NCBI RefSeq assembly: GCF_012271785.1
Contig: NZ_JAAWVT010000007.1
Span: forward strand, 124,001 to 188,000
Direction: 5' to 3'
DNA from: Paeniglutamicibacter terrestris
GTDB taxonomy: Bacteria > Actinomycetota > Actinomycetes > Actinomycetales > Micrococcaceae
Length of the DNA: 64,000 bases
Shown one piece after another: positions 46,247 to 59,249 of the stretch. How positions within the stretch are numbered: position 1 is the stretch's first letter; each line of letters opens with the position of its first letter. Position numbers and translations under genes: made by a program. The notes beneath the pieces were generated by a model, which was given only the letters and a program-made list of their open reading frames with translations, did no database searches and had not been told where the DNA came from.

Positions 46247-46254
46247 CTCATCTG

Positions 46255-46337
46255 TGCGAAGGAGGGGACTTGAACCCCCACCCACTTACGTGGACTAGCA
46301 CCTCAAGCTAGCGCGTCTACCATTCCGCCACCCTCGC
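46255..46337 (-). tRNA. tRNA-Leu, anticodon GAG
   Basis: On the minus strand the 5' end reads GCGAGGGTGGCGGAATGG and pairs with CCTTCGC at the 3' end, with discriminator A. The anticodon stem CTAGC/GCTAG encloses the loop TTGAGGT, which gives anticodon GAG. The long variable arm is typical of class II tRNA-Leu. The CCA end is not encoded. It reads CUC and CUU codons. Confidence 0.93.
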
Positions 46338-56345: not shown

Positions 56346-57431
56346 TTAGTAGTAGGTCTTCATGGCCTTTCTGACTTCTTCTAGGGTCTGCTCGGCGACG
56401 GCATTGGCTCGTTGATTGCCGACCCGCAGGACATCACGGAGGTAACCCGGGTCTTTGGCCAGCTCGATCCGCCGCGCCCTGATGGGCGCCAGATGCTCGT
56501 TAACAGCGTCGATGACCAGAGATTTCAGGGCGCCCGAACCGGCGGAGCCGAGCTCATCTCCAACCTCGTATGGGTCTTTGTTCTGGCACAGCGCGGCGAG
56601 CAAAACAAGGCTGGAGACTTCCGGCCGGTGCTCGGGGTCGTAGGATATCTGCCGAAACGAATCCGTTTTAGCGCCGCGTATCAGGCGAGCAGTTGTATCG
56701 GCATCATCCGCCAACGCCACCGCGTTATTGCGGCTCTTGCTCATCTTTCCGCCGTCGGTGCCCAACAGCAATGGAGCGGCGGAGAGTAAGGCGGTAGGTT
56801 CGGCGAAGATACTCTTTTCCGGGGCATAACGGGTGTTGAACCGTCGCGCGATGGTGCGCGTGAGTTCGAGGTGCGGCAGTTGATCTTTGCCGACCGGCAC
56901 CACGTTTGCCTTACAGAACAAGATGTCGGCTGCCTGATGTACCGGATAGGTGAACATCAGACCACTGACCGAGGACTGCTTCGAATGCGTTATCTCGTCC
57001 TTAACGGTGGGATTGCGCTCTAATTCCGCGACCGAAACTAGGGAGAGGAACGGGAGGAGTAATTGGTTCAGGGCAGCGATGGCACTGTGCGTGAAGATGG
57101 TGGTGCGTAGCGGATCGATTCCCACCGCCAAGTAATCCAGAACCAAGCCGTGGACGGCCAGCTCGAGATTGTTGGCCACGTCCCGGTCTGTCAGTACTTG
57201 GTAGTCGGCAATGAGGACAAAGGACTCGACTCCGAGGTTTTGTAGTCGGACGCGATTCTGTAGCGTGCCGAAATAGTGGCCGAGGTGCAATGACCCCGTC
57301 GGTCGATCGCCGGTGAGTACCCTGAATCGGTCGGGATTGACCCGTAGCTGGTCTTCGAGCGATGAGTCCTGCTCCACAGCGGGATCCGTGCCGAGCATTG
57401 ATGATGGTGGGGATAGCTGGTGATCGTGCAT
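56346..57431 (-). CDS. trpS: tryptophanyl-tRNA synthetase, attenuator-controlled
   Basis: 361 residues, class I synthetase. The HIGH-like motif HLGH is at 49 to 52 (in VLTGDRPTGSLHLGHYFGTL) and KMSKS at 229 to 233. It joins Trp to its tRNA. The N-terminal form (VLTGDRPTG, then TLQNRVRLQ) looks to me like the second type of bacterial TrpRS, known from Streptomyces coelicolor TrpRS1 and Deinococcus TrpRS II, rather than the common housekeeping form. TrpRS1 is resistant to the inhibitor indolmycin. That assignment is from memory and is not proven. Upstream is a full Trp leader and terminator. Confidence 0.92.
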   Translation of the reverse strand: MHDHQLSPPSSMLGTDPAVEQDSSLEDQLRVNPDRFRVLTGDRPTGSLHLGHYFGTLQNRVRLQNLGVESFVLIADYQVLTDRDVANNLELAVHGLVLDYLAVGIDPLRTTIFTHSAIAALNQLLLPFLSLVSVAELERNPTVKDEITHSKQSSVSGLMFTYPVHQAADILFCKANVVPVGKDQLPHLELTRTIARRFNTRYAPEKSIFAEPTALLSAAPLLLGTDGGKMSKSRNNAVALADDADTTARLIRGAKTDSFRQISYDPEHRPEVSSLVLLAALCQNKDPYEVGDELGSAGSGALKSLVIDAVNEHLAPIRARRIELAKDPGYLRDVLRVGNQRANAVAEQTLEEVRKAMKTYY

Positions 57432-57502
57432 GTGGTGCTCCTAGTGGCTTGAGGATGACACCGTCCGCGTGGAATGGCACCATACCCCTTGCTTTGGAGC
57501 AC

Positions 57503-57528
57503 AAAAAAGACCGTCCATGCGAACGGCC
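57503..57528 (-). terminator. attenuator terminator before trpS
   Basis: On the minus strand GGCCGT and ACGGTC (one G-T pair) enclose an 8-base loop and are followed by six T (57508 to 57503). It lies between the leader peptide and trpS, 72 bases before the trpS start. Confidence 0.75.
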
Positions 57529-57571
57529 TGATTTCTAACACGAAATGCGGCGGTTCCTAGTTGGAACGCCA
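57529..57571 (-). promoter_or_regulatory. attenuator hairpin regions 1 and 2
   Basis: Read on the minus strand, GGCGTTCC (region 1, from inside the second Trp codon) pairs with GGAACCGCC (region 2) with one bulged base. Region 2 GAACCGCC can instead pair with GGCCGTTC in the terminator stem with a single mismatch, forming an antiterminator. A ribosome stalled on the Trp codons would block region 1 and favour the antiterminator. Confidence 0.65.
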
Positions 57572-57598
57572 CCAAGCAAAACTCCGTGAATTGATCAT
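57557..57598 (-). CDS. trp leader peptide
   Basis: A 13-codon frame from an ATG at 57598 encodes MINSRSFAWWRSN with two adjacent Trp codons at 9 and 10, and a TAG stop at 57557 to 57559. The ribosome site is weak. Its position just before mutually exclusive hairpins and a U-run terminator makes a leader-peptide role very likely. Confidence 0.72.
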   Translation of the reverse strand: MINSRSFAWWRSN

Positions 57599-57695
57599 GG
57601 ACTCATGCTACAACTTTTCCCATGGCCAATCTTGCGCCTCGCAGTGGCCTTGTCATGGCTACGAAGTGTGGTTGATCCCATGCACCCCAGCCGTA

Positions 57696-57714
57696 GCGTG
57701 CCCCCGGGGCACGC
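57696..57714. promoter_or_regulatory. 19-base palindrome upstream of the SDR gene
   Basis: GCGTGCCCC-C-GGGGCACGC is perfectly symmetric. It ends 4 bases before a TAGACT sequence (57719 to 57724) that could be a -10 box, and 20 bases before the ATG. An operator is plausible. Confidence 0.45.
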
Positions 57715-57734
57715 CCGGTAGACTTGATGGCGAC

Positions 57735-59249
57735 ATGACTGAGAATTTTCCTGAGGCCGATCTGGTCAACAACGACGATCTTTTCACCGCTGCCGAGCTC
57801 GAGGCCGCCATCAAGGTGCTGGGTTTGGTTCACCGGCTAGAACCGGAAGACGAGCGTCACATCGCCGTGCGCCGAGCCACCGGAAAGATGTTTAAGTCCG
57901 CGAAGCGGCACCGCAAGAACGAAAAGCGCTCGGCCATCAACGCCGCCGATCGCGCGGTTGTAGAGCGGACCGCCACCGGCTCCCCCCAACGCCTGGATGA
58001 TGAGACATTGGGACTGGATCTAAGCACCCCGACCGATGAGCACACGGCCGGTGAGTACATCAAGCCGCGTGGTTGCTACATCTGTAAAAAGCGCTACACC
58101 ACGGTGGATGCCTTCCACCACTACCTATGCCCCGAGTGTGCTGCAGCCGGCCGCGAACGCCGTGACGCCCGCGCCGACTTGAGTGGCAAGCGTGCCCTGC
58201 TCACCGGTGGCCGAGCCAAGATTGGCATGCACATCGCCCTGCGCTTGCTGCGCGATGGTGCCCACACCACCATCACCACGCGCTTCCCGCGCGATGCTGC
58301 TAGGCGTTTTGCCGCGTTGGAAGACTCCTCCGATTGGATTCACCGCCTGCGCATCGTCGGCATCGATTTGCGTGATCCCTCCCAAGTCATTTCCCTCGCC
58401 GATCGCATTGCGGCCGAGGGGCCACTGGACATCCTGATCAACAACGCGGCGCAGACCGTGCGACGCACCTCGAACTCGTATCTGCACCTGGTCGAGTCGG
58501 AAACCCAGCCGCTTCCGGCCGAACTCGAATTTGTTGCAGGTGGCCCCGAGGTGTGGGGCGAGGCCAATCCCCCATCCGAACACCCGCGCGCACTGGCCAG
58601 TGCCTTCCGCTTGGAAGACTCCGCCCTGCTGGTTCCTGCGACGTCCACGAACTACGACGCTCAAGCGGTGGCCGATCTGGCGATGACTGCCGGCTCCGCC
58701 ACGCTGGAGCGCATCGCGGCGGGAACCGCCATCGATGCCGGCGGTTTGGTGCCCGACGTGGTCACCGAGAACTCCTGGACGCAGATCTTGGGAGATGTCG
58801 ACGCGCTGGAAATGCTGGAGGTGCAGCTGTGCAACGTCACCGCCCCGTTCCTGCTGGCCTCGCGTCTGCGCCCGGCGTTGGCGGCAAGCGATGCGCACCG
58901 CAAGTACATCGTGAACGTCTCGGCCATGGAGGGCCAGTTCTCCCGCCGCTACAAGGGTGCCGGCCATCCGCACACCAACATGGCCAAGGCCTCGCTGAAC
59001 ATGCTCACTCGCACCAGTGCCGAGGAAATGCTGCAGACCGATCGGATCTTGATGTCCGCGGTGGATACCGGCTGGATCACCGATGAGCGGCCACACGATT
59101 CCAAGGTCCGCATGGTGGCCGAGGGCTGGCATGCGCCGCTGGACTTGATTGACGGGGCGGCGCGGGTTTACCAGCCCATCGTTGATGGCGAACGCGGCAT
59201 TGACCTTTACGGTTGCTTCCTGAAGGACTACGAGCCCTCCCCCTGGTAG
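57735..59249 (+). CDS. SDR oxidoreductase with N-terminal zinc-ribbon-like segment
   Basis: 504 residues from an ATG at 57735. The first 110 residues are charged and unlike SDR. A Cys-rich segment follows with C114, C117, C132 and C135 (RGCYICKKRY and LCPECAA), suited to bind zinc. The SDR domain starts near 150 with TGGRAKIG at 157 to 164; NNAAQTVRR and the Tyr in RRYKGAGHPHTNMAKAS follow. It has a long insertion of about 100 residues between the NNAA motif and the active site. The function is unknown. If the TAGACT box is real, the transcript would be nearly leaderless. Confidence 0.82.
   Translation: MTENFPEADLVNNDDLFTAAELEAAIKVLGLVHRLEPEDERHIAVRRATGKMFKSAKRHRKNEKRSAINAADRAVVERTATGSPQRLDDETLGLDLSTPTDEHTAGEYIKPRGCYICKKRYTTVDAFHHYLCPECAAAGRERRDARADLSGKRALLTGGRAKIGMHIALRLLRDGAHTTITTRFPRDAARRFAALEDSSDWIHRLRIVGIDLRDPSQVISLADRIAAEGPLDILINNAAQTVRRTSNSYLHLVESETQPLPAELEFVAGGPEVWGEANPPSEHPRALASAFRLEDSALLVPATSTNYDAQAVADLAMTAGSATLERIAAGTAIDAGGLVPDVVTENSWTQILGDVDALEMLEVQLCNVTAPFLLASRLRPALAASDAHRKYIVNVSAMEGQFSRRYKGAGHPHTNMAKASLNMLTRTSAEEMLQTDRILMSAVDTGWITDERPHDSKVRMVAEGWHAPLDLIDGAARVYQPIVDGERGIDLYGCFLKDYEPSPW

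Follow-up and report, generated by a model that had tools for sequence, protein, structure and literature searches.

A probable leaderless tryptophan attenuator before an auxiliary tryptophanyl-tRNA synthetase gene of Paeniglutamicibacter terrestris

On the minus strand of the window, by which we mean the whole stretch of 64,000 nucleotides of P. terrestris DNA that was analysed, a leaderless ribosome-mediated transcription attenuator very probably controls the gene of an auxiliary tryptophanyl-tRNA synthetase (TrpRS). Attenuation of a tRNA synthetase had been proposed in the initial annotation of this DNA, and it is supported by the conservation of the Trp codons, by compensatory changes in the 1:2 helix, by the geometry of the ribosome and by a predicted switch of folds. 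The mechanism is already known; here, it probably drives an enzyme family that moves horizontally and differs from that of the best-known Streptomyces case. Leaders of this kind would give a cheap genome rule for inducible backup synthetases, some of them perhaps resistant to TrpRS inhibitors. They also make a natural set of leaderless attenuators of near-constant geometry, in which ribosome loading onto leaderless mRNA can be put to the test.

Layout of the leader and its predicted switch

The minus-strand frame of 13 codons with tandem Trp codons noted in the initial annotation is present, and the 1:2 hairpin, the 2:3 pairing with a single mismatch (57552 x 57525) and the 3:4 terminator with six T described there could all be located in the sequence. 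The elements are as follows:

57605-57610, minus strand: -10 box TAGCAT
57598, minus strand: predicted transcription start, the A of the leader ATG
57598-57557, minus strand: leader peptide ORF MINSRSFAWWRSN and its stop, 13 codons, ATG (57598) to TAG (57557), predicted to be leaderless
57574-57569, minus strand: tandem Trp codons of the leader
57563-57570, minus strand: segment 1 (partner, segment 2), overlapping the second Trp codon
57549-57557, minus strand: segment 2 (partner, segment 1, or segment 3 as antiterminator)
57521-57528, minus strand: segment 3 (partner, segment 2 or 4)
57516-57509, minus strand: segment 4, followed at 57508-57503 by the six-T tract, an intrinsic terminator together with segment 3
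57438-57442, minus strand: AGGAG, likely ribosome site of trpS, read from the sequence
56346-57431, minus strand: second tryptophanyl-tRNA synthetase gene (trpS), 361 amino acids

The three helices are mutually exclusive, and the terminator with its T tract precedes the gene, 125 nt lying between the stop codon of the leader and the start of trpS. The terminator hairpin is the sole terminator-like site in 57400-57700, where shuffled sequences average 0.2. For the 25-nt stretch that spans it the folding energy is -10.8 kcal/mol (z -3.7), a value matched by 0 of 200 shuffles, while the fold of the leader region (-37.1 kcal/mol, z -2.86) was equalled by 2 of 200. The same window also holds a tRNA-Leu (GAG) gene, at 46254-46337 on the minus strand.

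In the mechanism that we propose, transcription would begin at the leader ATG and the ribosome would load on the 5' end of the transcript. When charged tRNA-Trp is plentiful, the ribosome would reach the UAG and cover segment 2, leaving 3:4 to terminate transcription. When charged tRNA-Trp is scarce, owing to starvation or to inhibition of the housekeeping TrpRS, it would stall on UGG UGG and cover segment 1; 2:3 would then pair, with read-through into trpS. The cell would benefit from tRNA-Trp being kept charged while its main enzyme is starved or poisoned.

Predicted folds are consistent with this switch, on the assumption that the ribosome covers 12 nt counted from the first base of the A-site codon. 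By that geometry, a stall on Trp places the ribosome over segment 1, with segment 2 free, and a ribosome at the stop codon covers segment 2. With its edge at Trp the window's leader folds as 2:3 (-18.5 kcal/mol for the free RNA), with its edge at the stop codon as 3:4 (-17.6 kcal/mol). Four leaders were folded in all: the full-length RNA of three of them (G285, G004, G352) keeps the terminator even when the ribosome is on Trp, and the antiterminator 2:3 forms in all four when the RNA ends at segment 3, so that kinetic trapping must be assumed.

The stems were compared in an alignment (A2) of 20 leaders of the window's clade, 19 of them distinct. Compensatory changes, which had been put forward as a check, were found in 1:2 (three pairs) and in 2:3 (one pair), and none was found in 3:4. 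In the 1:2 helix 92.8% of the cells are paired; as judged by shuffles that ignore the relatedness of the rows, the three pairs changed on both sides were reached in 14 of 500 cases and the covariation score in none of 500. The 2:3 helix, with 92.1% of its cells paired, has four cells with two-sided changes (0 of 500 shuffles); these are confined to a single pair, as much as 313 of 500 shuffles attain, and one of its pairs is broken in 6 of the 19 distinct rows, the window's among them. The 3:4 helix is 100% paired and has zero two-sided changes, and covariation is therefore no test of it. Slid controls pair 30-65% for 1:2, 23-55% for 2:3 and 14-62% for 3:4.

Two further candidate structures were discarded. 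A basal stem seen by eye, joining the leader start to the stretch before segment 3, had a mean z of -0.04, and only 1 of 53 leaders was beaten by at most 10 of 200 shuffles, the test being a blunt one in which the stretch can reach segment 3. An ungapped search for a three-way complementary set was given no weight: it succeeded in 48 of 53 leaders, yet 576 of 1060 shuffles gave such a set too, and five of the six leaders in the window's clade, where a bulge and a mismatch occur, were missed.

A translated leader might also act through translation of trpS or through access of Rho, with no part for an intrinsic terminator. We consider this improbable, even though a run of at least four T follows the hairpin in only 22 of 53 relatives, the other 31 being without one in the stretch tested, and S. 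lividans trpL2 is reported as having no U-rich stretch (PMC8079986). The window itself, by contrast, has a strong hairpin and then six T, and its T tract lies some 60 nt away from the trpS ribosome site.

Conservation of the Trp codons and of the promoter spacing

The trpS of the window belongs to a type, designated type II, that was collected from 59 genomes, namely 14 of 197 genomes of the family (E up to 1e-90) and 46 of 394 genomes of the class (E up to 1e-70), the window's own genome being counted in both surveys. The upstream regions were searched for a short ORF with tandem Trp codons (WW) at most 420 nt before trpS. In this comparison, which the initial annotation had suggested, the Trp codons are conserved in relatives: such an ORF precedes 49 of the 59 type-II genes, whereas among the second trpS genes of these genomes it precedes 6 of 53, and it occurs in 0.95% of shuffles. 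When a TANNNT box that ends 6 or 7 nt ahead of the start codon is required as well, the counts become 45 of 59, 0 of 53 and 0.034%. The second TrpRS genes from 53 of the 54 genomes served as controls, G342 being omitted for too short an upstream region; among them, that of G554 belongs to the K family described below, and the start of the match overran the gene start in G257 and G311. Five of the six control matches lie at -380 to -410, and the sixth, that of G554, was later judged to be a real leader.

That the hairpin should be an ordinary terminator and the ORF a chance frame is thus very improbable. WW frames do turn up in control upstream regions, one of the six having since been recognised as genuine, but the gene upstream of the attenuator is divergent (57732-59249, plus strand), and the coincidence of WW with the fixed -10 spacing sets the relatives apart from controls and shuffles alike. 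As for a T-box or another riboswitch binding tRNA or a metabolite, such as the T-boxes that control many synthetase genes of Firmicutes (PMC1262725), it can practically be set aside: Rfam, T-box models included, gives no match at the locus at gathering scores and, at E up to 1, only one microRNA match that scores well below its threshold, and the peptide is conserved, beyond the RNA alone.

Four more type-II genes (G039, G151, G571, G527) have the box and a leader in which a single W or W-R-W takes the place of WW, and the leader of G355 is cut off at the end of a contig. No leader was found before type-II trpS in 5 of the 59 genomes (G286, G554, G334, G428, G435). In G286 (L033, L201) the hairpin sequence is retained before the type-II gene and the ORF with Trp codons is absent; the other TrpRS of this genome lies at the end of a very long branch and has the sequence KPTG, and the roles of its two enzymes may have changed too. 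Among the matches listed in a wider genome scan, 34 loci (L062-L094 and L096, with L095 omitted) comprise eight with a leader, all in Actinomycetes; in the same listed loci no leader was recognised in Bifidobacterium, in Coriobacteriia or in other phyla, the two-W frames of L070, L076 and L094 having been dismissed as chance by eye.

An RNA model of the leader scores 97.9 bits at the window's locus, and its next match in the genome, at 20 bits, looks like an ordinary terminator. Besides six true matches, the genus gave nine weak ones, of which, by eye, several are plain terminators and others apparently coding. A 17-bit match in the window's genome (L208, C23:339946-340066) contains a WW frame of 21 codons.

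The geometry of the start is almost invariant. In 49 of 53 leaders the TANNNT box ends 6 nt (40 leaders) or 7 nt (9 leaders) 5' of the start codon, start codons having been picked by hand and the -10 box having sometimes decided among in-frame options; the counts of 49 and 45 out of 59 given above are independent of these choices. A scan of distances 0 to 19 gave, besides 6-7, a single case at distance 1, and none at 2-5 or 8-19. The remaining four leaders have CATAAT or CATACT at the place of the -10 box. Start codons are ATG (27) or GTG (26), and a 4-base Shine-Dalgarno core is present in 3 of the 53; the window's leader is without such a core and has its -10 box at the fixed spacing. No -35 box was found in the window or in the aligned leaders, where the conserved promoter positions are the T, A and T of the -10 box and a G two places upstream of it, and nothing else. 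This pattern fits a promoter of the extended -10 type. The fixed spacing, as in leaderless transcripts, points to a leaderless mRNA, so that the weak ribosome site of the leader, held in the initial annotation to be the main weakness of the proposal, would no longer be one. The trp leaders of S. lividans are reported as leaderless (PMC8079986).

Two TrpRS families and the known attenuators

The trpS product passes TIGR00233 with 243 bits (cut-off 177). A search for a second trpS, suggested at the outset, found one other in the genome, 36% identical and on a separate contig. The nearest solved structures are those of Deinococcus TrpRS II (PDB 1yi8, 2a4m), ranked first in both comparisons, and the active-site motif GDRPTG is common to the two enzymes in alignments; by its sequence, the window's enzyme belongs with the Deinococcus TrpRS II family. 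In alignment, the other TrpRS of the genome has His at the position of Bacillus His43, where the window's TrpRS has Gln. Replacement of His43 by Asn in Bacillus TrpRS is reported to give resistance to indolmycin (PMC4899734), and the Gln suggests that the window's enzyme may be resistant as well. Deinococcus TrpRS II is reported to work with nitric oxide synthase (PMC9437257). A TrpRS with 57% identity is encoded in an unannotated phage record from human faecal samples (MT835538.1, 17187-18239).

A second TrpRS family, present in 43 of the 394 class genomes, was labelled K after the Lys found in 18 of 30 fetched sequences at the place of the window's Arg 43. In all 30 K loci fetched, out of the 43, a short ORF with Trp codons lies upstream, and in 29 of the 30 a -10 box ([T/C]ANNNT) stands 6 or 7 nt before its start. 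A tree of the N-terminal parts of 56 sequences separates type II and K into distinct clades (100/99 and 100/98), with the K clade on the housekeeping side of the TrpRS tree. Both types occur together in 1 genome of 394 against 5.0 expected, with a p of 0.026 that assumes that both surveys drew the same 394 genomes and that kinship makes optimistic; every one of the other 42 K genomes contains one or more additional TrpRS and no type-II gene (best score 178 bits, type II exceeding 380). In G554 (L202 / L253) the K-family TrpRS has a WW leader of its own and the type-II trpS shows none.

Leaders were found in 52 of 54 genomes with at least two TrpRS, versus 2 of 5 with a type-II gene alone (Fisher p 0.003, with small numbers), in a table compiled by reading loci and in which G355 counts as bearing a leader. 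Since in G554 it is the K gene that has a leader, none being found for the type-II gene, this suggests that the attenuator marks an auxiliary role and not one enzyme family. We lean slightly towards the view that two unrelated TrpRS families came to be controlled by leaderless Trp attenuators of one kind, each on its own or through replacement of the enzyme that follows the leader, and that they serve actinomycetes as interchangeable, horizontally moving backups, seldom both in one genome. This view has its limits: type-II and K leaders could share one origin, the mutual exclusion is mild, and one strain, Microbacterium sp. No. 7, carries two copies of one TrpRS type on two plasmids.

Attenuation of trpRS1 of S. 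coelicolor was reportedly described by Vecchione and Sello, and it is to this case that the initial annotation had likened the present one. In S. lividans a trpL2-trpS attenuator has been reported from RNA-seq (PMC8079986). It is like the window's in that a short leaderless leader with Trp codon(s) and two hairpins precede trpS, and differs from it in that trpL2 has one W and is reported there without a U-rich stretch, whereas the window's leader has two W and six T. As printed in that source, the S. lividans trpS leader has 11 of 13 residues in common with a K leader; with the window's leader it shares 3 of 13, and with none of the eight type-II leaders compared more than 4 of 13. By this indirect evidence of leader likeness, the attenuated Streptomyces trpS probably belongs to another TrpRS family than the window's. 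Because the S. lividans leader is K-like and type II and K form separate clades, the window's enzyme is probably not the counterpart of S. coelicolor TrpRS1; the likeness to that case applies to the mechanism, and probably not to the enzyme.

Similarly, a candidate classical attenuator has been predicted before trpS2 of S. avermitilis (PMC1262725). The attenuators of the trp operons of Corynebacterium and Streptomyces also have Trp codons, with an antiterminator and a terminator that share a complementary triple, but they control biosynthesis where the window's would control a synthetase (PMC1262725). Trp attenuators in Actinobacteria are the subject of a 2015 paper, cited in PMC4833913, that may already cover this group. 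Titles and openings of abstracts, for the most part outside subscription journals, yielded no further description of an actinobacterial trpS attenuator. In the window's genome no trp-type leader was recognised in the 600 nt upstream of trpE; two WW frames (18 and 39 codons) there were judged to be chance by position, without a hairpin test, because both are inside the preceding open frame.

Mobility of the leader and its gene

The leader travels with the gene, on the chromosome as judged from the tree and also on plasmids, in five records or more. A type-II gene is present in 7 of the 15 genomes of the genus. Six of these genes form a clade (100/99) within a clade of 21 rows (98/99) that includes Streptomyces and Actinomadura, and lie at most 1.3 kb from the same SDR-like gene; the seventh, of G004, is placed among other members of the family to which the window belongs. 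A stretch of 49 residues, 47% identical, that resembles the C-terminal part of type-II trpS stands next to that SDR-like gene in G013 and G014:

L245 3115-3261 and L248 1255-1401: trpS-like stretch of 49 residues, G013 and G014

G012 has an SDR-like and a pspA-like gene, and no trpS match lies between the two; in the other six genomes of the genus neither trpS nor pspA was seen within the 1.5-kb flank. The trpS of G010 (L025, L008) is matched in two pieces and that of G123 (L030) has an in-frame TAG, either of which may reflect decay or an assembly error.

A plasmid collection searched at E up to 1e-60 gave ten records, nine of them with leader and box; the leader is absent from the tenth, of Collinsella. 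A 24-kb piece of the window had three short matches, and no others, among plasmids. Four of the nine records, although filed as plasmids, measure 2.8 to 11.9 Mb, and at least one of these is as large as a chromosome. The other five are plasmids of 94-423 kb from three lineages, represented by Streptomyces, by two near-identical Rhodococcus regions and by two Microbacterium plasmids. In Microbacterium sp. No. 7, the two plasmids have in common an identical block of 3,911 bp, comprising leader, trpS, istB and istA, with flanks that differ:

L230 and L231, 2715-6625: Microbacterium block with ends TGA..TCA and IS21 istB-istA

This 3.9-kb block looks like a transposon that carries the attenuated trpS, as though it had moved as one unit.
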